Assembly (NCBI GenBank): GCA_021604525.1
Contig: BQJD01000015.1
Location: 1 to 64,000, forward strand
Reading direction: 5' to 3'
From: a marine bacterium B5-7
Lineage (GTDB): Bacteria > Pseudomonadota > Gammaproteobacteria > Arenicellales > CAJQKF01
Length of the DNA stretch: 64,000 nucleotides
Shown here: piece after piece, positions 15,173-32,138 of the stretch
Numbering within the stretch: position 1 is the first letter of the stretch
How the letters are laid out: every line of letters starts with the position of its first letter
Notes under the pieces: generated by a model
What the model was told of the DNA's origin: nothing
Seen by the model: only the letters and a program-made list of their open reading frames with translations
Databases searched by the model: none
Position numbers and translations under genes: made by a program

Positions 15173-16099
15173 ATGACTGATACAGGCGACTACTCAACAC
15201 ACGATGCCGACCACGATCCACGCAACGATGACCTGAAGCTTTTCGTCAACAGTCGAATTGTGCCACGCACCGAGGCCGTGGTGTCGGTATACGATGCAGG
15301 CTTTATGCTGGGCGATGGGGTATGGGAAGGATTGCGGTTGTACAACGGCCACTGGGCGTTTCTTGATGAACATCTCGATCGCTTGTTCGAAGCTTCCCGC
15401 GCCATCGATCTCGACATTGGCATGGACAAGGCGGATCTAACCCGCGCCCTTGATGATACCGCGCGCGCCAATGACATGACCGCCAATGTGCATGCGCGGT
15501 TGATGGTGACGCGCGGGATAAAATCAAAACCGTTTCAGGATCCGCGTCTGTCTCGACATGGCCCAACCGTTGTCATCATCATGGAGCATTCAATACCATC
15601 GAATGCAACCTTCGAGCGCGGCATTCGCCTGCATACCGTGCCTATCTATCGCGGTCTGCCGGTGACCCAGGATCCCAAGCTGAATTCGCATTCGAAATTA
15701 AACTGTATCCTTGCCGGGATTCATGCCCAGAAGGCGGGTGCCGACGAAGCGTTGATGCTGGACCCTCACGGATTCGTCAACACCACTAACTCATGTAACT
15801 TTTTTATTGTTCGTCATGGTGAGCTGTGGACCTCGACAGGGGACTACTGCATGCCTGGCATTACCCGGCGCAAGATCATCGAACTGGCGCGTGTAGAGGG
15901 TATCGCCGTATTCGAGAAAAACTTCTCGCTCATGGAGGCGTACAGCGCGGACGAGGCATTTATAACCGGTACCTTCGGCGCGCAAACACCGGTGACGGAA
16001 ATCGATGGACGACGCATCGACCAGGCGCCTGGACCGGTGACCATTCGTTTGCGAGAGCTATACCGGGCCTTGATTGAAAGCGTCACGACGGATCCTTAA
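15173..16099 (+). CDS. Class IV (BCAT-like) PLP aminotransferase
   Basis: A 308-residue fold-type IV PLP enzyme. The N-terminal signature is VSVYDAGFMLGDGVWEGLRL; the C-terminal PLP-phosphate region is TGTFGAQTPVTEIDGRRI. It probably transaminates a branched-chain, D- or other amino acid with a 2-oxo acid. In the usual PLP-lysine region the sequence reads DPKLNSHSKLNCILAG, so the Schiff-base residue is likely Lys175 or Lys169, and the site normally written K-x-x-N looks shifted. Substrate is unknown. It converges with the flavoprotein gene ending at 16125. Confidence 0.85.
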   Translation: MTDTGDYSTHDADHDPRNDDLKLFVNSRIVPRTEAVVSVYDAGFMLGDGVWEGLRLYNGHWAFLDEHLDRLFEASRAIDLDIGMDKADLTRALDDTARANDMTANVHARLMVTRGIKSKPFQDPRLSRHGPTVVIIMEHSIPSNATFERGIRLHTVPIYRGLPVTQDPKLNSHSKLNCILAGIHAQKAGADEALMLDPHGFVNTTNSCNFFIVRHGELWTSTGDYCMPGITRRKIIELARVEGIAVFEKNFSLMEAYSADEAFITGTFGAQTPVTEIDGRRIDQAPGPVTIRLRELYRALIESVTTDP

Positions 16100-16124: not shown

Positions 16125-17864
16125 TCAGCCGCCCGGTGTTCCTGCATCGCCATCGATCAGTGACTGGCCCGGCACGACGATACTGAATTCCACTGGCAGC
16201 ATGTCTGCTTTGATACCATCGCCATTGTCGCAAATTCGCGTGTAGGTGCTGGATTCCAGTGATCCGGTTTCAGGGAAATCTTCGCGAAAATGTGCCCCAC
16301 GGGAATCCTCCCGCAGTCTGGCTGCAGCGATGATTATCTGACTTGCCGACAACAGGCTGTGTAAATTCAGCCAGTCATGCCAGGTGAGATTGAATCGCCG
16401 GTCGTCGTCGCTGACACCGGTTGAATCCAGTTCTGCCGACAGTGCCTTAACTCCGTCGGCAGCGCGGTCGAGGCCAGCACGGTCGCGCAGGATACCGGCA
16501 TCGTCCCACATGAGTGCCGATAAACGTTCGCGCAATTCGTAAAGCGCACCCGGTGATTGGGTGAACGGTTTTTCGGCACGCGCTACGGCCGCATCGATGG
16601 CGGACGCATCGACATCGCGACGATGTTTGGACAGGTCAACGAAAGCCGCCATGCTGTCACCGGCGATGGCACCGAAGACGGTTGAATTGGCGACCCCATT
16701 ACCTCCCAGGCGATTTGCTCCATGCACGCCGCCGCAGTCTTCGCCAGCGGCGAACAGTCCGGGCCAGGCAGTGGAACAATCGGCATCGAATTCCACGCCG
16801 CCCATCATGTAGTGCGCGGTCGGCACCACTTCGACTCGGCCACCGGCGAGATCGAAACCGCAGTCGGCGCAGCGCTTGACCATGCCCTTGAACATTCGCG
16901 TGACGTTATCTGGCCCGAGATGCTTCATCTCGATATACACGCCGTCGTTCGGCGATGTCCGTCCGGCCCGCATCTCGGCATAAATTGCCCGCGAGACGAT
17001 GTCGCGGGTGGCGCGTTCGCCGCGCGGATCGTAGTGTTCCATGAAGCGTGCGAGGTCGCCGTTCAGCAGCCATCCGCCGGCGCCGCGCAACCCTTCTTCA
17101 AGCACCGTACCGGTCATGCGGGTATCCGGTCCGCCCAGCAGACCGGTGGGGTGAAACTGCACCATCTCCATATCGCGTAACCCCAGGCCGGCACGCAGCG
17201 CCATGGCAAGGCCGTCACAGCTCTTGTCGCCGCTGGGTGTGTGATAGCGATACATGGTCGGCCCGGCGCCGGTGGCAAGCAGCACTGCGCGGGTGCGTAC
17301 CAGTTTGTAGTCACCGCTGCGCACGTCGATCATCAACACCGCAGCGATACCCGAGCCGTCGGTTGCCGGTAACAGTTCGATGGCACGATGCTCTTCCAGT
17401 CGACGCACATCGCGCGACCAGACTTTTTCCATCAACCGGTTGATGATCTCGATGCCGGTCAGATCGCCCTTGTGTACGGTGCGATCGAAACTTTGTCCTG
17501 CAAAGGCTTTCTGATGCAGCGAGCCATCGGCATTGCGGTCGAAGAAACAGCCGAGCTCGTTTTCAAGCTCGCGTACTCGCACAACCGCCGTCTCGCATAA
17601 TGTCCAGGCCAAGTCCTGGCGTGGCAACCACTTGCCGCCGACGATGGTATCCATGAAATGGCGTTCCACCGAATCACCCGCCGCCAGTGCGACGTTATAT
17701 CCCCCCTGAACCATGCGGGTGCAGCCACTCTTGCCGAGCAGTCCCTTGCTTGCCACGGTAACGCCAAGATCCGGGTTTGCCTTGATGGCATGCAGCGCGG
17801 CAAACAGTCCAGCGCCACCGGCGCCGAGAATGAGGATGTCGGTATTTACGGATTCGATGTGCAT
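16125..17864 (-). CDS. Succinate dehydrogenase/fumarate reductase-like flavoprotein subunit
   Basis: A 579-residue member of the SdhA/FrdA/NadB family. It shows ILGAGGAGLFAALHA near residue 12 and the dicarboxylate-site residues His238 (FHPTG), Arg287 (RATRD), His351 (PTAHYMMGG) and Arg385 (HGANRLGGN). At the position of the histidine that covalently binds FAD in SdhA/FrdA there is Cys48, in SGCTRMVQGG. FAD is therefore probably bound non-covalently. In E. coli FrdA such changes abolish succinate oxidation but keep some fumarate reduction. Last gene of a B-D-C-A operon downstream of a GcvT-domain oxidoreductase. Direction and substrate remain open. Confidence 0.88.
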   Translation of the reverse strand: MHIESVNTDILILGAGGAGLFAALHAIKANPDLGVTVASKGLLGKSGCTRMVQGGYNVALAAGDSVERHFMDTIVGGKWLPRQDLAWTLCETAVVRVRELENELGCFFDRNADGSLHQKAFAGQSFDRTVHKGDLTGIEIINRLMEKVWSRDVRRLEEHRAIELLPATDGSGIAAVLMIDVRSGDYKLVRTRAVLLATGAGPTMYRYHTPSGDKSCDGLAMALRAGLGLRDMEMVQFHPTGLLGGPDTRMTGTVLEEGLRGAGGWLLNGDLARFMEHYDPRGERATRDIVSRAIYAEMRAGRTSPNDGVYIEMKHLGPDNVTRMFKGMVKRCADCGFDLAGGRVEVVPTAHYMMGGVEFDADCSTAWPGLFAAGEDCGGVHGANRLGGNGVANSTVFGAIAGDSMAAFVDLSKHRRDVDASAIDAAVARAEKPFTQSPGALYELRERLSALMWDDAGILRDRAGLDRAADGVKALSAELDSTGVSDDDRRFNLTWHDWLNLHSLLSASQIIIAAARLREDSRGAHFREDFPETGSLESSTYTRICDNGDGIKADMLPVEFSIVVPGQSLIDGDAGTPGG

Positions 17865-17866
17865 GC

Positions 17867-18223
17867 TTACAGTATTCGCCAGATGAATGCGCCACCGATG
17901 AGCGCCGCCAGCACGATGCCGGCGTCGATCAGTTGCGGTGCAAGATTACGTTCATTCCGCCAGGTACCGAATTCCAGCATCATCAGCCGCAGGCCGAAGG
18001 CGAGATGAATGGTAAGCAACACAACGAGACCGGTCTCGGCAGCCTTGACCACCAGGTTATCGGTGAAGGCGAGTCCCGCATCAAGTCGTGCCTCGCCATC
18101 AAGCGCGAGACCGAGCATCAGGAAATGCACGGGCAGAAACAGTGCCAGGGCAATACCCGATATACGATGCAAAAAGAAAGCCCGGTGCGAACGGCCATCG
18201 CTGCGATCCATGTTACGGCTCAT
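17867..18223 (-). CDS. SDH/FRD-like membrane anchor, cytochrome b subunit (SdhC-like)
   Basis: A 118-residue integral membrane protein with three hydrophobic helices. It has LHRISGI near the N terminus and IHLAFGLRLMMLEFG, whose His73 fits the heme b ligand of SdhC. The ATG at 18223 overlaps the previous gene's stop (ATGA); an upstream extension to 18334 is out of keeping with the family. With the adjacent anchor it would bind heme and quinone and dock the flavoprotein/iron-sulfur pair to the inner membrane. Confidence 0.82.
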   Translation of the reverse strand: MSRNMDRSDGRSHRAFFLHRISGIALALFLPVHFLMLGLALDGEARLDAGLAFTDNLVVKAAETGLVVLLTIHLAFGLRLMMLEFGTWRNERNLAPQLIDAGIVLAALIGGAFIWRIL

Positions 18224-18561
18224 GACATGTAACCAACAAATACCGCAACGACCGCACGAGAGCCGAGAAACAGCAACAACCCCGCAAACAGCAGCATGGC
18301 GATATCGATAAATTGCCGGGACAGGCGGGTCCATTCGATCAGCACATTACGGAGGCCGATGGGTGCGTGGATGGCGGCGGCAATGACGAAGGTCTGGTAG
18401 AACAGTGCCCAACCGAAATTGCCACGGGTTCGGCCAAGAATTTCAGCGGCACTCAATCCGCCGCCGCTGGCATATACGATCACGATGATGTGCACCATCA
18501 CCATGACGGCCAGCAATACGGCGGTGAGGCGCTGCAGGACAAATAACCGGGCTTCCGTCAC
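18220..18561 (-). CDS. SDH/FRD-like membrane anchor (SdhD-like)
   Basis: A 113-residue protein with three hydrophobic helices. His24 lies in the first helix (VMVMVHIIVIVY); His65 lies in IHAPIGLRNVLIEW, the position of the second heme b ligand in SdhD. Its ATG overlaps the iron-sulfur gene stop (ATGA). The two anchors with paired axial histidines suggest a type C, heme b-containing complex that reacts with quinone. Confidence 0.8.
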   Translation of the reverse strand: MTEARLFVLQRLTAVLLAVMVMVHIIVIVYASGGGLSAAEILGRTRGNFGWALFYQTFVIAAAIHAPIGLRNVLIEWTRLSRQFIDIAMLLFAGLLLFLGSRAVVAVFVGYMS

Positions 18562-19292
18562 GACGCCACCTTGTCAGTAGCAAGTCCCAGGGTATTAAGC
18601 AGGGTCGCGCGTTTTAAACCGGCGATACTGCGAGTCGGACTGAGTTCCACCGGACAGGCCTCGGTGCAGCGACCCTGGGTGTGGCAACTCGAACAGCCGC
18701 CGGCGGCGCTGACTACTGCTAATAATCCGCGATGATCTCCATGACGGCAGTCGTTGAGCAATGTCCATGCGCGATTAAGTGCGGCGGGGCCGAGATAGTC
18801 CTTGTTCCAGCCAGCCACGTCACAGGCGCTGTAGCACACCGCGCAGTTGATACATTCGATACCGGCATCGGCGTTGCGTCGTTGGCGATCTTCATGAGTC
18901 ACGCTGGCAGGCGGATCATGACGTGTCGCGGTGCCCTCAAAAACACCGCCTGCACGCTGCCATTTTTCAAAGAACGGCGCCATGTCCGTGATGAGATCCT
19001 TGATATGCGGCAGATTGCGCAATGGTTCGATAGTCAGCTCGCTGTTAATGGCGACCCGGGTGACATGGGTGCGGCAGGTCCATCGCGGCCGACCATTGAC
19101 GGTCATGGCGCACGAACCGCATACACCGACCCGGCAGGCGAAGCGGTAGCTCAAGGTGGGATCGATGCGTTGCTGAATCTCGGTGACCACGTCGAGCACG
19201 GTCTGGTTATCTCTTGCAGAGACCGAGTAGGTTTTCAGCGCACCCTTTTCTCCACCCCGCCAGACGTGTACCTGAAGTTGCCCATCGCTCAT
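18558..19292 (-). CDS. SDH/FRD-like iron-sulfur subunit
   Basis: A 244-residue SdhB/FrdB-type protein. The [2Fe-2S] ligands are Cys53, Cys58, Cys61 and Cys73 in the plant-ferredoxin-like domain. The [4Fe-4S] set is Cys147/150/153/157 (CINCAVCYSAC). The [3Fe-4S] set is Cys203/209/213 (CHTQGRCTEACP). All three clusters are therefore intact, giving a full electron wire between flavin and quinone. It starts 44 bp after the GcvT-domain oxidoreductase stop and overlaps the first anchor gene. Confidence 0.92.
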   Translation of the reverse strand: MSDGQLQVHVWRGGEKGALKTYSVSARDNQTVLDVVTEIQQRIDPTLSYRFACRVGVCGSCAMTVNGRPRWTCRTHVTRVAINSELTIEPLRNLPHIKDLITDMAPFFEKWQRAGGVFEGTATRHDPPASVTHEDRQRRNADAGIECINCAVCYSACDVAGWNKDYLGPAALNRAWTLLNDCRHGDHRGLLAVVSAAGGCSSCHTQGRCTEACPVELSPTRSIAGLKRATLLNTLGLATDKVAS

Positions 19293-19336
19293 CTAACTAT
19301 CGTATTCCCCATGGTCTTTACTGAGAAGAGTTTAAC

Positions 19337-21781
19337 TCAGGATTCATTACCCGCGTCAGCTCTGGGGCGCCCACTGCTGGCGTCCCAGACCGGTTCCGCC
19401 AACACCGTGGCCGCACACCGCTTGCCGAGCAGCTCGACGGAAAAACCGCTGCCGACAGCAGCAAAGGCAGATTCCACATAAGCGAAGCCGAGACTCTTGC
19501 CGGTGACGTGACCGTAGCCGCCCGAGGTGGTCACGCCTATGGGCCTGTTGCCATCGAATACCGACTCACCACCCATGACGTCACTATCGTTAGTCGCAAT
19601 CTCGAAGTAAACGCATGAAAGTTCAGCGCCCGTTTCACGAACCTTGAGGGTTGCCTCCTTGCCGATAAAATTATCCTTGGCTTCAGCGAAGAACCGTATC
19701 ATGTCGGCCTCCACCATGGTGATTTCATTGGTGAGTTCCGAGCCATAGCCCTTGTAGGCTTTTTCCATGCGCAGCGAATTGACCGCATAGGCGCCGAAGT
19801 TGGCAATGCCGAAGTCCTGTCCTGCTTCCCATAACGCTTCGTAGACATCAGCGAGATCGGCCATCGGAACATGTAGTTCGAAGCCGAGTTCTCCGACATA
19901 GTTGATTCGCAGCGCGCGCAGCGACACGCCGGCCACGGTGATCTCGCCAGCCGTCAGCCAGGGAAAGGAAGCGTTATCGAGTTGCGCGTCGGTTACTCGG
20001 GCCAGTGTGTCGCGGGACCTGGGTCCCGCCAGCACCAATACGCCCCAGTCGTCGGTGATGTTGTTGACCTCGACGGCTTCGCCATGGATTTTAGCCTGAC
20101 ATAAGGTATCGAAATCACGGTCTTCATAAGCCGCGCCGGAGAGGATGTAGTAGCGTTCACCGTTAAGACGGGTGATGGTGGATTCTCCAGTAATCCGGCC
20201 CTGTTCGGAGAGATAATGGGCCAGCACGATTCCACCATCGCGACGCGGCATGCGATTGGCGGTGACACGATTCAGAAGCGTCTCGGCGTCAGCGCCGCTC
20301 ACCTCGTACTTGGCGAAGCTCGACAGGTCGAGGATCCCCACCCGTTCACGCACGGCGCGACATTCATCGGCGACCACATCGAAGACATTGCTGCGGGTGA
20401 GTCCCGGTACTTCTTCGCGCCCATCCAGAGAGAACCACTGCGGTCGTTCCCAGCCGTTAGCTTCGGTATACACACAGCCGGCATCTGCAAGCCGTTGATA
20501 CAACGTTGAGACCCGAGCCGGACGCGAGGCCGGTCGTTCCTCGCCCGGCAGGTGCAGGGCGTACATGTGTTCATAATCCTGATGCGACTTGGCACGGGTG
20601 TAATCCCCCGGCGCATGTTTGCCGAAACGTCGTGGATCGAGCCCCGCCATGTTGATTTCGCTGTCACCGTAGACCATCCATTGGGCCAGATACTTGCCGC
20701 AGCCGGCGCCGGCCGCGATACCGATCGAGGCGCCGTTACAGTGCCAGAAGTTCCTTAACCCCTCGGCCGGACCGAGCAGCGGATTGCCGTCTGGAGTATG
20801 CGGTATGGCGCCACACACCACCCGCTTGATGCCGAGGTTACGCCATGACGGCATACGCTCCATCACCCGATCGATAAATGGTTCGAGAGTATCAAAATCC
20901 GGATCGAACAATTCGTTTTCCGAGTCCCACTCCGGCCAGCCGCCGCGATGGGTCCAGCACTCCCGCGAACCGCGGGTTTCATAAATACCGATCAGCGCGG
21001 ATTTTTGTTCCTGTCGGTAATAAGCCGATGGATACGGATCGCGCATCACCGGCATCTCATCATCGCGGGCGGCAAATTCATCGAACGTTTCGGTCACGAT
21101 ATAGGTGTGCTGCATGTTGGTGATGGGGCTATCGGTGCTCACCATCTGGCTGATCTGGCGGGCATAGCAGCCGGCCGCATTGACTACCATCTCGCAGATC
21201 ACCGAACCCTGCTCGGTGACCACTTCCCATTCTCCTGATGAACGCATGCGAATATCGAGTACCCGATTATGGGTCACGATGCTCGCACCCATGGCGCGTG
21301 CGCCCTTGGCCAGGGCGTTGCAGCAGCCGGCGGGATCGACGTGGCCGTCATCGGTGGTCCAGGCGCCGGCAATGACGCCGTCGAGATCGATATACGGGTT
21401 TAGCTGGCGAATTTTTGCGGGATCGATAATCTCGCAGTGAAAGCCGAGCAGCTTGCCAACGCCGGCGACATGGCGAAACCACTCAACCTCCTGGGGTTTG
21501 GTGGCGAGACGAATACCGCCCGAACCGTGCCAGCTCACGTATTGACCGGTTAACGCTTCAAGACGCGGATACAGGCGAACGCCGTAATCGTGGATCTTGG
21601 CCATGTTGTAGTCGGCAATGAAACTTGGGCACTGGCCGGCAGCGTGCCAGGTGGAGCCTGACGTCAGCTCGCCTTTTTCAATCAGCAGACAGTCGCTGAC
21701 ACCCTCTTCAGCAAGGTGATACAACAAACCCGCGCCCATCATTCCGCCGCCAACTATGACGACCCGTGCCTGACTTTGCAT
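19337..21781 (-). CDS. FAD-dependent oxidoreductase with C-terminal GcvT folate domain (dimethylglycine/sarcosine dehydrogenase-like)
   Basis: An 814-residue two-part enzyme from the ATG at 21781. The N-terminal half is a DAO-type FAD domain (VVIVGGGMMGAGLLYHL), with WHAAG at 45-49 holding a His at the covalent-flavin position of dimethylglycine dehydrogenase. The C-terminal half is an aminomethyltransferase domain (GESTITRLNGERYYILSG; NYVGELGFELHVP). Relatives demethylate N-methylglycines and pass the C1 unit to tetrahydrofolate. It heads the operon with the four SDH/FRD-like genes. The real substrate is not known. Confidence 0.88.
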   Translation of the reverse strand: MQSQARVVIVGGGMMGAGLLYHLAEEGVSDCLLIEKGELTSGSTWHAAGQCPSFIADYNMAKIHDYGVRLYPRLEALTGQYVSWHGSGGIRLATKPQEVEWFRHVAGVGKLLGFHCEIIDPAKIRQLNPYIDLDGVIAGAWTTDDGHVDPAGCCNALAKGARAMGASIVTHNRVLDIRMRSSGEWEVVTEQGSVICEMVVNAAGCYARQISQMVSTDSPITNMQHTYIVTETFDEFAARDDEMPVMRDPYPSAYYRQEQKSALIGIYETRGSRECWTHRGGWPEWDSENELFDPDFDTLEPFIDRVMERMPSWRNLGIKRVVCGAIPHTPDGNPLLGPAEGLRNFWHCNGASIGIAAGAGCGKYLAQWMVYGDSEINMAGLDPRRFGKHAPGDYTRAKSHQDYEHMYALHLPGEERPASRPARVSTLYQRLADAGCVYTEANGWERPQWFSLDGREEVPGLTRSNVFDVVADECRAVRERVGILDLSSFAKYEVSGADAETLLNRVTANRMPRRDGGIVLAHYLSEQGRITGESTITRLNGERYYILSGAAYEDRDFDTLCQAKIHGEAVEVNNITDDWGVLVLAGPRSRDTLARVTDAQLDNASFPWLTAGEITVAGVSLRALRINYVGELGFELHVPMADLADVYEALWEAGQDFGIANFGAYAVNSLRMEKAYKGYGSELTNEITMVEADMIRFFAEAKDNFIGKEATLKVRETGAELSCVYFEIATNDSDVMGGESVFDGNRPIGVTTSGGYGHVTGKSLGFAYVESAFAAVGSGFSVELLGKRCAATVLAEPVWDASSGRPRADAGNES

Positions 21782-22217: not shown

Positions 22218-22895
22218 TCAACGAGCTGAATCAAGAGTCTCGTTGTTTTTAACCACTTCCTGTGCCTTGGCATAACTCTCAATCAACAACTGGTAGGCCG
22301 GGAAGATTTTGGTATAGATCTCTGCCCATTCCTGCGCATCGTCACGATTCCAGGTCTTTTGTAGCTCCGAAGCTACAGCAGCGGCATCCATTGGTACCGC
22401 ACCGGCCTGGACGACGCGGGCCAGAGTGATTTCCTGAGCCATCTTGTTATAGGTACCGGAGGCGTCGATTACGGCAAACACCTTGTAACCCTCCGCCAAT
22501 GCGCTGATTGCAGGAAAGGCCATGCAAACACTGGTAATGGTTCCCGCGATGATAAGGGTCTTACGGCCTGTTGCTTCTACAGCTGCAACAAAATCCGGGT
22601 TATCCCAGGCATTAATTTCACCTTTGCGTGCAATGTACTGAGCGTGAGGCGCGTTCTCGTGAATTTCCGGAATCAGTGGACCATTGGGCCCTTGTGGGAC
22701 CGACGCCGTAGTGATAACCGGCAGCTTTGATAAGGTGGCGATATTGGCTAGAGCGGCAACTCTGGCTCGTAGCTCAGGCATGGGCATGTCGCCTACAGTC
22801 TGGAACAGACCACTTTGATGGTCGATCAAGAGCATCACAGCGTCTTCCGGGTTGATCACGGGACGTTGACCGTCAAAATTGGCTGGTATAGTCAT
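22218..22895 (-). CDS. Isochorismatase-family cysteine hydrolase (paralog 2)
   Basis: A 225-residue YcaC/isochorismatase-like hydrolase from the ATG at 22895, which has a GAGAGAAG site. The putative nucleophile is the Cys in [16 protein letters not shown]. The conserved Asp lies in [12 protein letters not shown]. Family members cleave amides or related bonds. It is a clear paralog of the next gene upstream, sharing GPNGPL, INAWDN and the Cys loop. It ends the pirin-led operon just before a terminator. Substrate unknown. Confidence 0.88.
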
Positions 22896-22930
22896 GGTAT
22901 TACTTCTCTCGTCAATGGAAAGCGAGGCAA

Positions 22931-23560
22931 TCATTTACCGCTTTCGGTGAGTGTGATGAAACTCGAGATCAAGTTTCGGTAATCAGGGATGTGGTTCGAG
23001 AATAGCGACCCGAGGCCTTCGATATCATTGCGCCAGTCGCGGTGAAGTTCACACGCCAGACCGAACCAGGTCATCAGTTGTACACCGGATTGAGACATGC
23101 GATCCCATGCCGAGTGGCGGGTCAGTTCATTGAAAGTGCCGGATGCGTCAGTGACGACGAAGACATCGAAACCTTCTTCTATGGCAGACAGGGCTGGAAA
23201 CGCCACGCAGACTTCAGTCACCACGCCGGCAATAATCAGCTGCTTTTTACCCGTGGCTTTAACTGCCTTAACAAAGTCCTCGTTATCCCAGGCATTGATC
23301 TGTCCCGGACGAGCGATGTATGGAGCGTCTGGAAACTGCTCCTTCAATTCCGGGACGAGTGGGCCATTTGGTCCTGTCTCAAAACTGGTTGTCAGGATTG
23401 TGGGCAGTCCGAAGTATTTGGCCAGATCGCCTACAGCCAACACATTGTTTTTGAATTTATCCGGATCAATATCGCGAACAAGAGACAATAGACCGGTTTG
23501 GTGGTCGACCAACAAAATCGCAGCATTGTCTTTATCGAGTCGAACATATGGATTACTCAT
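22931..23560 (-). CDS. Isochorismatase-family cysteine hydrolase (paralog 1)
   Basis: A 209-residue hydrolase from the ATG at 23560, with a strong AGGAG site. Features are [13 protein letters not shown] with the catalytic-type Asp, [14 protein letters not shown], and [15 protein letters not shown] with the nucleophile-type Cys. The length fits the YcaC subgroup. Tandem arrangement with a diverged paralog suggests duplication, followed by specialisation or hetero-oligomer formation. It lies 35 bp upstream of paralog 2 and 75 bp downstream of the pirin gene. Confidence 0.88.
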
Positions 23561-23635
23561 GATTTTCTCCTGCATGGTTTAGCTGGTGCTATGCACCGGT
23601 GATTTCCGGCTGCCAACTGGCCCCCGGAACCTTGC

Positions 23636-28728: not shown

Positions 28729-29742
28729 ATGAAACGATTGATCACCCTGGCGAGCGTGGGACTATGGTCCCTGGGGCTCGTAACCCTTGCCGGCACGGCG
28801 GCAGCCGATTATCCAGAACGCGATATTACCAACGTGGTGGTATGGTCGGCGGGCGGCGGAACCGATGTCAGCAACCGCATAATCTCGGCGGAGATGGAAC
28901 AGTTCCTGCCGGTGCGCATCAATGTCACCAACAAGCCGGGCGGGGTTGCCGGCTCCATCGGCATGAGTTACGTGCATGGTCGTCCGGCTGACGGCTACAC
29001 CATCGTCGGCCTGTCGGAGTCGTGTGTCACGGCTGGCGTGCAGGGCGGCTGGGATCAGAAAATGGACGTCTGGTATCCGTTCATCGTCGGTGGTTCACCG
29101 GATCTCATTTCGGTCACTGCCGATGCGCCGTATCAAAATCTGAAAGAACTGGTTGAAGCCGCACGCAGCAATCCCGGCAGCATCAAGGCCGCCGCCAGCG
29201 GCGCCGGCTCGATCCACCACCTGAATTTGCTGGCGTTGATGAAAGGCACCGGCGCACAAATGAGCTTCATTCCCTACGCCGGTTCGGCACCTGCACAGAA
29301 CGCCGCCATGACCGGCGAGGTCAGTGTAGTGGTCACCTCGCTGGCGGAACAGCAACAGTTGCTGAAAGGCGGCAAATTGCGAGCCTTGGGCATGCTGGTG
29401 CCGGATGCCTTTACGGTCGATGGCGTCGGCGATATCCCATCAGCCTTCACCGCCTACCCTGAGTTGTCCGAGCATCTACCTATCAGCCAGGCGATTGGCA
29501 TGGCAGTGCGCAACGATGTGCCTGATGAGGTCAAAACCGTACTCTCGGATGCTTTCACCAAGGCGCTGGCCACCGATAAGGTCAAGCAGTGGGCGGCTGA
29601 TAACTACTACGTGCTGTCGGGCAAAACCGGCGATGCCGCAAGCGAGGAATTCGCACGGCTTGAAAGCCTGTTTGCCTGGACCCTGCATGATCTCGGAGCG
29701 GCCAAGCTCGATCCATCCACCCTCGGTATTGCCAAACCGTAG
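28729..29742 (+). CDS. tctC: Tripartite tricarboxylate transporter substrate-binding protein (TctC/Bug family)
   Basis: A 337-residue periplasmic protein with a signal peptide ending GTAAA before DYPERDI. Bug-family features are VVVWSAGGGTDVSNR, the ligand loop NVTNKPGGVAGSIGMSYV, and the later AASGAGSIHHLN. It captures a carboxylate and passes it to TctAB. An AGGAG ribosome site sets the start. It is first in the catabolic operon, directly behind a promoter with an internal operator, so it is probably induced by the substrate. Symbol denotes family. Confidence 0.9.
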   Translation: MKRLITLASVGLWSLGLVTLAGTAAADYPERDITNVVVWSAGGGTDVSNRIISAEMEQFLPVRINVTNKPGGVAGSIGMSYVHGRPADGYTIVGLSESCVTAGVQGGWDQKMDVWYPFIVGGSPDLISVTADAPYQNLKELVEAARSNPGSIKAAASGAGSIHHLNLLALMKGTGAQMSFIPYAGSAPAQNAAMTGEVSVVVTSLAEQQQLLKGGKLRALGMLVPDAFTVDGVGDIPSAFTAYPELSEHLPISQAIGMAVRNDVPDEVKTVLSDAFTKALATDKVKQWAADNYYVLSGKTGDAASEEFARLESLFAWTLHDLGAAKLDPSTLGIAKP

Positions 29743-29753
29743 ATTAAGTACAA

Positions 29754-29791
29754 GGTAACGACAACCGCAACCGCTGAAGGTTGTCGTTACC
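29754..29791 (+). promoter_or_regulatory. Strong intercistronic hairpin between tctC and tctB
   Basis: GGTAACGACAACC (29754-29766) and GGTTGTCGTTACC (29779-29791) form a perfect 13-bp stem around a 12-base loop, just past the tctC stop. No T-run follows. It probably protects the 3' end of the tctC message and raises binding protein over permease, as with the hairpin after dctP. Confidence 0.75.
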
Positions 29792-29811
29792 ACTACGGGG
29801 AAAAATGATTC

Positions 29812-30582
29812 ATGGACAAGCAAACAGATCAGATTAAGGGCCTACGCAGAAAAGACTTCTGGACTGCACTGGTACTGATCGGGTTATCGCTTGCAATGTT
29901 GATGGAGGTATCTGGATACCCCATAACCGACAGCTACGGCGGCGTGCAGAATGTCTGGTATGTCTCACCGGCGCTTTTCCCGTTACTGGTGTCGCTGGCC
30001 TTGCTGTTGTTGTCATTGGTGTTGCTAACCAAATCGATTATCAGCGGCGGTGCCAGGGAGGCCTTGCGGCGTCTCGGTTCGGCAAACAAATCAAACTTAT
30101 CGGTTGAGGCGAGCCAAGCGGAATCTCGGACGCGGGTGCGTTTCTGGACGATACTCACGGTACTTGTTTGTTACGTCTACGGACTGGTGCCGGCAATGGA
30201 TTTTATTGTTGCCTCGGTGCTGTTCCTGAATGTATTCATCGGCAATTTCTATCTCGAAATTGACCGGCCGTTGAATTTGCCAATACTGATCCTGGTGGCT
30301 ATGGCGGTCGTGGGGCTGGCACAAACCCTTGGCTGGTTGCCGGATCAAGGCGACCTGTTCGACTGGCTTGGCCTTGTCATGATCCTGGTGATAGCGGGTT
30401 ATTTTTTCTCGCGCAGTGGGGAGCGTTTCAAGGTGGCGCGGGTTTTCACGGTCAGCCTCATCACGGTATTACTGGTCGCGCCGCTGTTTCGATTTGTGTT
30501 GCTGGTACCGTTGCCCCATGAAGGGCTGGTTATCGGCTGGATGGACTCGGTTCGTTACCTGCTACGCAGCATCATTGGATAG
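29812..30582 (+). CDS. tctB: Tripartite tricarboxylate transporter small membrane subunit (TctB-like)
   Basis: A 256-residue membrane protein in the TctB position, with five to seven hydrophobic segments. It is longer than typical TctB proteins of about 150-180 residues: after the usual four helices it has an extra hydrophobic tail (residues about 190-256). It is expected to support TctA in carboxylate import. The context between tctC and tctA fixes the call more firmly than sequence alone. An open frame without stops rules out a frameshifted fusion. Confidence 0.8.
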   Translation: MDKQTDQIKGLRRKDFWTALVLIGLSLAMLMEVSGYPITDSYGGVQNVWYVSPALFPLLVSLALLLLSLVLLTKSIISGGAREALRRLGSANKSNLSVEASQAESRTRVRFWTILTVLVCYVYGLVPAMDFIVASVLFLNVFIGNFYLEIDRPLNLPILILVAMAVVGLAQTLGWLPDQGDLFDWLGLVMILVIAGYFFSRSGERFKVARVFTVSLITVLLVAPLFRFVLLVPLPHEGLVIGWMDSVRYLLRSIIG

Positions 30583-30596
30583 CAAGTATCACCGAT

Positions 30597-32138
30597 ATGG
30601 AACTGGCATCCCGATTCGCAGATTTTTTCGTCATATTGGTCACCCTGCTGTCCGATCCGGCTAACTGGGTTGTGCTCATGGGTGCCAGCATTCTTGGCAT
30701 CGTATTTGGTGCACTGCCGGGACTGACGGCAACCCTCGGGGTTGCCCTGCTGACCACCCTGACCTACGGCATGCCGCTCGATACGGCATTGATTGCCCTG
30801 CTGGGATTGTATGTCGGGGCAATTTACGGCGGCAGTTTTCCGTCCATTCTCATCAATATCCCTGGAACCGCCGCGTCGGCGGCAACAGCGATGGATGGTT
30901 ATCCCATGGCGCAGCGCGGCGAGGGTGCACGTGCCCTTGGTCTGTCTACCACGGCGTCGTTCCTCGGCACCGTGATCGGCATGTTGTGCCTGGTGGCAAT
31001 CGCACCGATCATCGCCAACTTCGCGTTGAAATTCACTTCATACGAATTCTTTTTACTGGCGCTGTTTGGCATCGTCATCAGCGGTACCCTGACGAGTACA
31101 GACCTGGTTTACAAGGGCTGGATCAGCGGTCTGCTTGGCCTGGCGCTGGCCTGTATCGGTCGCGACCGGCTGCAATTTTTTCCGCGCTTCACCTTCGACT
31201 TGTCTGTGCTTGAAAGTGGCATCGAGGTGGTGCCGGTTCTCATTGGCGCATTCGGCATTCCGCAGATAATTCGGGTCTTGAGTGATGGCGAGGTTCTGGC
31301 GCGACCCAAAAATTTCGGCCGGATACTGCCCGAACTAAAGACCATCAGCGCCAATTTCAAACATATTGTGCGGTCCGCCATGATCGGCGTCGGCATTGGT
31401 TCGGTGCCTGGTGTGGGTGAGGATATTGCCGGCTGGGTGTCCTACGGCGCGGCGCGAAACACATCGAAGCATCCGGAGCGTTTCGGCCGCGGTGAGCCGG
31501 CCGGGTTGGTCAGCTCCGAGACGGCCAACAATTCGTGCATCGGTGGTGCACTGATTCCACTTCTGACCCTCGGTATTCCAGGCAGTCCGCCGGCTGCAAT
31601 GCTGCTTGGCGCACTGATGTTGCATGGCGTCAATCCTGGTCCGATGATCGGCTTCGAACGTCCGGGTTTCCTGCTCGAAGTCACCGCGATTTTATTGCTG
31701 GCATCATTCGCCATGTGGATTAACGGCATGCTGCTGGCGCGTCAGGTGGTACGGCTACTGGCGGTTCCGGCGTCGATATTCCTGCCTATCGTCGCACTGA
31801 TGTGCGTGTTGGGTTCCTACGCCCTCGGTCTCAATATGGTCAATTTGTATCTGATGGTACCGATGGGAATCGTCGCCTACCTGCTGGTACGCATGGAGTA
31901 TCCCATCGCACCACTGGTTATCGGGGTGATTCTCGGGCCCATGGCGGACGAGAATCTGCGTCGTGCGCTAATGGTTTCCGATGGCTCGCTGGTACCGTTC
32001 TTTACGCGCCCCGTGGCGCTGATCCTGGTGACAGTAATTGTCCTGACCTTATTGTCACAGGTGCCGTTTGTGCGACGTCTGACAGGACGATTGATCGGCG
32101 TGATCGGCCATGTGTTCAAGCGGGGTACGGGATCTTGA
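30597..32138 (+). CDS. tctA: Tripartite tricarboxylate transporter large permease (TctA)
   Basis: A 513-residue inner-membrane protein of the TctA family with about 12 hydrophobic segments. Diagnostic stretches are GIVFGALPGLTATLGVALL, YGGSFPSILINIPGTAASAA, and the second-half repeat SVPGVGEDIAGWVSYG with LGIPGSPPAAMLLGAL. It is the cation-coupled channel of the system. It closes the transporter part of the operon; the isopropylmalate-dehydrogenase-like gene follows after 114 bp, which contains a small GTGATT/AATCAC hairpin. Confidence 0.94.
   Translation: MELASRFADFFVILVTLLSDPANWVVLMGASILGIVFGALPGLTATLGVALLTTLTYGMPLDTALIALLGLYVGAIYGGSFPSILINIPGTAASAATAMDGYPMAQRGEGARALGLSTTASFLGTVIGMLCLVAIAPIIANFALKFTSYEFFLLALFGIVISGTLTSTDLVYKGWISGLLGLALACIGRDRLQFFPRFTFDLSVLESGIEVVPVLIGAFGIPQIIRVLSDGEVLARPKNFGRILPELKTISANFKHIVRSAMIGVGIGSVPGVGEDIAGWVSYGAARNTSKHPERFGRGEPAGLVSSETANNSCIGGALIPLLTLGIPGSPPAAMLLGALMLHGVNPGPMIGFERPGFLLEVTAILLLASFAMWINGMLLARQVVRLLAVPASIFLPIVALMCVLGSYALGLNMVNLYLMVPMGIVAYLLVRMEYPIAPLVIGVILGPMADENLRRALMVSDGSLVPFFTRPVALILVTVIVLTLLSQVPFVRRLTGRLIGVIGHVFKRGTGS

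Follow-up and report, generated by a model that had tools for sequence, protein, structure and literature searches.

A complex II paralog linked to fumarase-like hydratases and sulfonate genes: a putative 3-sulfopropanoate dehydrogenase from a marine gammaproteobacterium

The window analyzed here, a stretch of 64,000 nucleotides from the marine bacterium B5-7 (contig BQJD01000015.1), contains a set of four genes at positions 16125-19292 that resembles the respiratory complex II enzymes succinate dehydrogenase (SDH) and fumarate reductase (FRD). Judging from sequence comparisons, we propose that these genes encode a quinone-linked complex II paralog that functions in sulfonate catabolism, most likely as a 3-sulfopropanoate dehydrogenase, a reading to which we assign a probability of roughly 0.55. 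In 3-sulfopropanoate, a sulfonate group takes the position of one carboxylate of succinate; 3-sulfoacrylate, sulfolactate and sulfopyruvate correspond in the same way to fumarate, malate and oxaloacetate. A role of the module in sulfonate metabolism is well supported by the genes that surround it in many bacteria, and it is the exact substrate that we infer.

A partner hydratase and a sulfonate gene context

The complex has as its conserved neighbor a hydratase from the class I fumarase/L(+)-tartrate dehydratase family, the two subunits of which match the Pfam families Fumerase and Fumerase_C and carry conserved cysteine residues. It differs from class I fumarase in that it comes in two subfamilies, here called B5 and B7, which are 72-75% identical within and only 35% identical between them, each of them bound to the dehydrogenase. 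Cupriavidus necator N-1 and Methylobacterium nodulans ORS 2060 are strains of the B5 type, and Methylobacterium oryzae is of the B7 type. The coupling is tight: the flavoprotein, which is sparse across the phylum, and the B5 alpha subunit occur in the identical set of 7 of 299 genomes, and the flavoprotein is likewise present in each of the 12 plasmid records that contain a B5 alpha subunit of more than 66% identity. In the genome to which the window belongs (G000), the B5 pair is located on another contig (C49), away from the complex, beside a LysR regulator that resembles those near other modules. In two haloarchaea, which have neither anchors nor a class I hydratase locally, the hydratase is replaced by an ArgH-type lyase from the fumarase II superfamily, which makes this protein a candidate for a third, unrelated hydratase.

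The haloarchaeal plasmid loci L137 (9488-16456) and L154 (6425-14422) contain the flavoprotein and the iron-sulfur subunit, the ArgH-type lyase, SuyAB-like genes and TauE. The haloarchaeal ArgH-type protein gave 260 bits, under the cut-off, against the NCBIfam model XcbC, which belongs to bacterial coenzyme M synthesis.

Genes for the handling of sulfite and sulfolactate recur around the modules. In 15 of 20 genomes, the gene for a TauE/SafE sulfite exporter is no more than 10 kb away from that for the flavoprotein, compared with about 0.5 expected from the approximately 7 such exporter genes in a genome of 5.7 Mb. Annotated records from several lineages also place SorA/SorT sulfite dehydrogenases, YeiH sulfate exporters and SuyAB-like lyase genes near the modules, and the lineages with sulfite or sulfolactate neighbors include Methylobacterium, Pseudomonas, Paracoccus, Sulfitobacter, Pseudorhizobium and the haloarchaea. 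The two hydratase subtypes keep different company. SuyAB-like genes flank 22 of 41 B7 modules but only 1 of 52 B5 modules (p = 3e-9, a statistic that ignores shared ancestry), whereas 6 of 11 B5 genomes and none of 10 B7 genomes encode a malonate-semialdehyde dehydrogenase at a distance of up to 10 kb. The identity of the latter enzyme (TIGR01722) was established for the Pseudomonas copy, and in Pseudomonas MPC6 its gene overlaps the hydratase gene. In the window's genome, a cluster of SuyA-SuyB-SlcC-ComC-like genes is found on contig C12, 3 kb from an ATP-binding cassette transporter, relatives of which (64-74% identical) adjoin the complex in other genomes. The names SuyAB, SlcC and ComC are derived here from synteny and family, not from comparison with characterized sequences. 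Several SuyAB-like proteins (L054 15399-16571, L133 17730-19335, L158 8935-10514) are annotated merely as UxaA family hydrolases, and among the proteins searched there was no specific NCBIfam model for this group.

The gene set beside the B7 modules, like the one on C12, resembles the published pathway for sulfolactate with SlcC/ComC, SuyAB and TauE (PMC12421959). That pathway has no SDH-like step, whereas the module described here would feed 3-sulfopropanoate into it.

The main rival to this reading keeps the sulfonate module and changes the substrate. Sulfosuccinate would then be converted to sulfofumarate, the hydration of which would yield either oxaloacetate and sulfite or sulfomalate, and sulfomalate would proceed by oxidation with decarboxylation to sulfopyruvate and on to sulfolactate. 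The sulfite and sulfolactate neighbors are identical for the two substrates, the dicarboxylate site of the flavoprotein is partly retained, and transporters of the tricarboxylate and C4-dicarboxylate types are encoded close by. However, sulfosuccinate leaves the malonate-semialdehyde dehydrogenase beside the B5 modules unexplained, an additional decarboxylation is needed to reach sulfolactate, and our literature search found no paper on such a route and nothing relevant on sulfosuccinate, sulfofumarate or SDH-like sulfonate enzymes. We consider sulfosuccinate rather unlikely as the substrate.

An altered substrate pocket on a complex II scaffold

The residue calls were made from an alignment of 113 family members with SdhA and FrdA of E. 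coli and with the SdhA and NadB proteins of the window's own genome. The four residues of the dicarboxylate site that had been listed in a preliminary description of this DNA (His238, Arg287, His351 and Arg385) are all present and are invariant in the 113 members. In FrdA, H232, H355 and R390 orient fumarate and R287 is the proton donor, while Thr244 in the capping domain forms a hydrogen bond to fumarate and twists it (PMC5773532). The position of this threonine is occupied by Glu256 in every member of the family, a difference absent from the preliminary description, and the segment between His238 and Glu256 contains an inserted basic residue, Arg249 in 110 members and Lys in 3. The carboxylate site with H351/R385, and R287, thus looks retained, and the capping-domain site appears to have been rebuilt with Glu256 and Arg/Lys249. 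An AlphaFold model of the flavoprotein had a predicted local distance difference test score of 79, with values below 50 in the active-site loops 42-54, 235-237 and 383-388, and is too uncertain there to inform the geometry.

The loop that binds flavin adenine dinucleotide (FAD) is also altered. It reads KSGCTRMVQGG here versus RSHTVSAQGG in SdhA and is one residue longer than in SdhA and FrdA. The preliminary description had stated that the flavin-linking histidine is replaced by Cys48, and indeed none of the 113 members aligned with SdhA and FrdA has a histidine at this site in the loop; they have Gly47-Cys48 instead, and it depends on the placement of the gap whether Gly47 or Cys48 falls in the histidine column. 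All 113 members have Cys48, which means that the change did not arise by chance. The FAD may be bound non-covalently, but this cysteine could equally well bear an 8-alpha-S-cysteinyl FAD.

The cysteine ligands of all three iron-sulfur clusters align with those of E. coli SdhB, in agreement with the preliminary description, and so do the heme-ligand histidines of both anchors, the quinone-site histidine of SdhB and the HR motif of SdhC. Because these ligands and motifs align, the electrons most likely go to quinone, as predicted from the conserved residues.

With its four subunits, its flavoprotein fold, its clusters, heme and quinone-site histidines and the H238/R287/H351/R385 set, the complex thus closely resembles SdhABCD and FrdABCD of E. 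coli. It differs from them in its gene order (B-D-C-A), in the Gly-Cys pair and the longer loop at the flavin link, in the Glu at Thr244/254, in the Arg/Lys249 insert, in its overall identity of only about 33-36% and in its linkage to sulfonate genes. These similarities could be taken to mean that the complex is a second SDH or fumarate reductase, which acts on ordinary C4 substrates together with a class I fumarase and is carried along with sulfonate islands; the fold, the iron-sulfur and heme ligands and most of the substrate residues match complex II, and the hydratase falls within the fumarase/tartrate dehydratase family. Yet the threonine that twists fumarate is Glu in all members, accompanied by an inserted basic residue, a canonical SdhA is already encoded in the genome, the sulfite-gene neighbors recur, and three dissimilar hydratases are each linked to sulfonate genes. 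We regard a second SDH or fumarate reductase as unlikely. The preliminary description had pointed out that in E. coli FrdA such a replacement of the link histidine leaves FAD non-covalent and favors reduction over succinate oxidation, whereas the sulfonate context argues for the oxidation of a succinate analog, not for fumarate reduction.

The altered pocket would also leave room for another sulfonated or bulky analog of succinate, such as an alkyl- or amino-succinate, as would the varied neighbors of the modules, which include a thiamine pyrophosphate (TPP) enzyme, an amidohydrolase and transporters. Nevertheless, an enamine product is not, on general chemical grounds, hydratable by a fumarase-type enzyme, and analogs that are not sulfonates leave the sulfite genes unexplained. 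Such substrates are improbable.

Family assignment and distribution

The complex has the flavoprotein domains, the three-cluster iron-sulfur subunit and the anchors with heme b ligands that define the complex II superfamily, and it lacks the substrate threonine, the link histidine and the grouping with SdhA and FrdA in the tree that would place it in SDH/FRD (EC 1.3.5.1). The flavoprotein scored under every specific NCBIfam cut-off. The best model was TfrA (NF004900), with 487 bits versus 718, and the L-aspartate oxidase model TIGR00551 gave 340 bits versus a cut-off of 453. In a maximum-likelihood tree, the 113 members formed one branch (SH-aLRT 100) that was separate from SdhA, FrdA, NadB and three other plasmid-borne paralogs; the tree was built with a quick method and has long outgroup branches, deeper placement is limited and the separation is the sole claim that we base on it. 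A comparison with SdhA, FrdA and NadB and a search for a canonical sdh operon had both been suggested in the preliminary description. The search located an SdhA at G000:C11:73943 and, at C11:77244, a NadB-like protein; both share about 34-35% identity with the flavoprotein of the window.

TfrA is part of the thiol:fumarate reductase of methanogens, and the likeness is that its model ranks first. The score is far under the cut-off, however, and in the complex described here the SdhB-type subunit is separate and membrane anchors are present. NadB shares the absence of a histidine for covalent FAD and a longer loop following the HPT motif, but NadB is a stand-alone soluble oxidase, the flavoprotein falls under the cut-off of its model, and the genome has a NadB of its own.

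Of the 60 nearest genomes, 24 encode a member of the flavoprotein family, and the genus of the window is represented among them. The taxa with the family span the alpha-, beta- and gammaproteobacteria. Relatives with 47-53% identity were found in Rhodococcus jostii RHA1 and in haloarchaea. The flavoprotein of G002, a genome of the same genus, belongs to a different sub-branch from those of the window and of another congener, G001, and many copies of the family are located on plasmids, suggesting horizontal transfer. In a phage collection, the matches listed were just ordinary proteins of the SdhA/FrdA type with about 31% identity.

The locus and its DMGDH-like neighbor

A check of the open reading frames in the window confirmed five genes, all on the minus strand (Table 1), which comprise the four genes of the complex and a gene for a protein resembling dimethylglycine dehydrogenase (DMGDH). 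The family searches agree with the SDH/FRD-like complex and the gene order given in the preliminary description. The genes of the complex overlap or almost abut, and a gap of 44 bp separates the iron-sulfur gene from the DMGDH-like gene.

Table 1. Coordinates of the genes and codons discussed in the text (positions in the window).
Feature	Position	Strand	Basis
Flavoprotein subunit, P0001, 579 aa	16125..17864	-	Pfam FAD_binding_2 and Succ_DH_flav_C, both above cut-off
Cys48 codon, in the loop that bears the covalent-FAD His in SdhA/FrdA	17721..17723	-	Alignment, 113/113 members
Glu256 codon, position of FrdA Thr244 / SdhA Thr254	17097..17099	-	Alignment, 113/113 members
Arg249 codon, insert between His238 and Glu256 without SdhA/FrdA counterpart	17118..17120	-	Alignment, Arg in 110 and Lys in 3 of 113
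SdhC-like membrane anchor, cytochrome b556 family, P0002, with overlapping ATG start	17867..18223	-	TIGR02970, 44.5 bits (under cut-off 52.3); Pfam Sdh_cyt above cut-off
SdhD-like membrane anchor, P0003	18220..18561	-	Pfam Sdh_cyt above cut-off
Iron-sulfur subunit, P0004	18558..19292	-	TIGR00384, 181.9 bits (cut-off 88)
DMGDH-like DAO + GcvT protein, P0005, outside the conserved module	19337..21781	-	Full-length match to DMGDH structures

The DMGDH-like protein matches the DMGDH structures over its full length (4p9s, E = 6e-179), with the DAO, FAO_M and GcvT domains and the flavin motif GSTWHAAG. The preliminary description proposed that the complex works with this enzyme, or takes electrons from it, in N-methyl or C1 metabolism. 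The two are encoded adjacently on the same strand, and the arrangement is repeated in one congener (G001, L115), so that the five-gene order is conserved to that extent and nowhere else. Only 5 of 111 modules have a DMGDH-like gene within 10 kb, in most cases a distant paralog from a group with many paralogs per genome. The orthologs of P0005 in genomes of the same order (67-75% identical) either are located on other contigs than the complex or belong to genomes from which the complex is absent. It is the fumarase-like hydratase, not the DMGDH-like enzyme, that is the conserved partner. Coupling to N-methyl chemistry was rejected as a general function because the adjacency is restricted to G000 and G001, and we consider this model very improbable, although a local role of the two together within the genus is conceivable. 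The interpretation in the preliminary description is thus supported in part.

A gene for a D-amino-acid/branched-chain aminotransferase-like protein (15173-16099, plus strand) is convergent with the flavoprotein gene, and this gene and an isocitrate dehydrogenase gene hold the same place in G001 (L115). Immediately upstream of the DMGDH-like gene, on the same strand, are two neighboring genes for isochorismatase-family hydrolases (22218-23575, minus strand). A tripartite tricarboxylate transporter, consisting of a TctC receptor and a TctA permease (28729-32138, plus strand), is encoded at a distance of about 7 kb from this set of five. Transporters of this type are often found near the module elsewhere; in the window, regulators and an oxidoreductase intervene.

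A proposed pathway and the points against it

In the pathway that we propose, the membrane-bound complex would dehydrogenate 3-sulfopropanoate to 3-sulfoacrylate, with electrons passing from FAD through the three iron-sulfur clusters and heme b to quinone, and the dedicated fumarase-like hydratase would then add water to 3-sulfoacrylate. With the B7 subtype, and with the ArgH-superfamily enzyme in the haloarchaea, the product would be 3-sulfolactate, which SlcC/ComC and SuyAB would convert to pyruvate and sulfite. With the B5 subtype, which is that of the window's genome, the hydroxyl group would most likely be added to the sulfonate-bearing carbon. The resulting bisulfite adduct of malonate semialdehyde would break down to the free aldehyde and sulfite. 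Hydration at the sulfonate-bearing carbon would explain why malonate-semialdehyde dehydrogenase is found near the B5 modules and why SuyAB is missing there. The sulfite would be exported by TauE or oxidized. As a whole, the scheme would amount to a sulfonate copy of the succinate-fumarate-malate sequence, served by two fumarase subfamilies and an ArgH-type lyase, with opposite regiochemistry and spontaneous carbon-sulfur cleavage in the B5 branch; we put it forward tentatively, as a proposal that falls somewhat short of even odds. The gene content, the obligate pairing with the hydratase, the enrichment of sulfite genes and the change in the pocket are observations, whereas the substrate, the regiochemistry and the direction of the reaction are inferred.

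3-Sulfopropanoate is a natural product, the bacterial degradation of which is unreported except in one thesis (PMC11489063). As cited there, the thesis proposed a route in Roseovarius nubinhibens from 3-sulfopropanoate through sulfoacrylate to sulfolactate, with the same intermediates as proposed here; where PMC11489063 refers to this route, it names no genes. Our literature search found no published genes for the oxidation step of 3-sulfopropanoate, and papers on thiol acids in Variovorax and Advenella make no mention of such a module. In favor of the proposal, Paracoccus wurundjeri grown on sulfofucose was reported to induce nine proteins assigned to "fumarate and tartrate metabolism," which are encoded in a cluster with a TauE homolog (PMC12421959); this cluster 3 (MDP0926751-0926761) is likely the module seen in P. 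versutus.

Several observations weigh against 3-sulfopropanoate as the substrate or weaken the case for it. A glutamate beside a sulfonate would be odd, unless it is protonated or paired with Arg249, and sulfosuccinate would suit much of the same gene context. In the window's own order, no sulfite gene or TauE was found within 10 kb of the complex, and SuyB is not significantly more common in members of the order with the complex (13 of 24) than in those without it (11 of 36). An acetolactate-synthase-like TPP enzyme, encoded near 37 of 111 modules of both types, has no place in the scheme, and the enrichment counts ignore shared ancestry. Examples of the TPP enzyme within 10 kb of the flavoprotein are found in L032, L054, L133, L135 and other loci.

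Significance

Microbes that use sulfoquinovose, dihydroxypropanesulfonate or homotaurine excrete 3-sulfopropanoate (PMC11489063), and specific genes in culturable strains can now be proposed for the missing steps in its degradation. C. necator H16 also excretes this compound. The dehydrogenase and hydratase proteins of the module currently carry the plain labels succinate dehydrogenase and fumarase, and metabolic models are misled as a result. Our findings point to the recruitment of complex II for a sulfonate pathway across the Pseudomonadota; a Rhodococcus and haloarchaea have relatives of the enzyme. The two hydratase subtypes predict two distinct ways of breaking the carbon-sulfur bond. 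If the proposal is true, a respiratory dehydrogenase would, together with a fumarase-like enzyme, drive desulfonation in the B5 branch.

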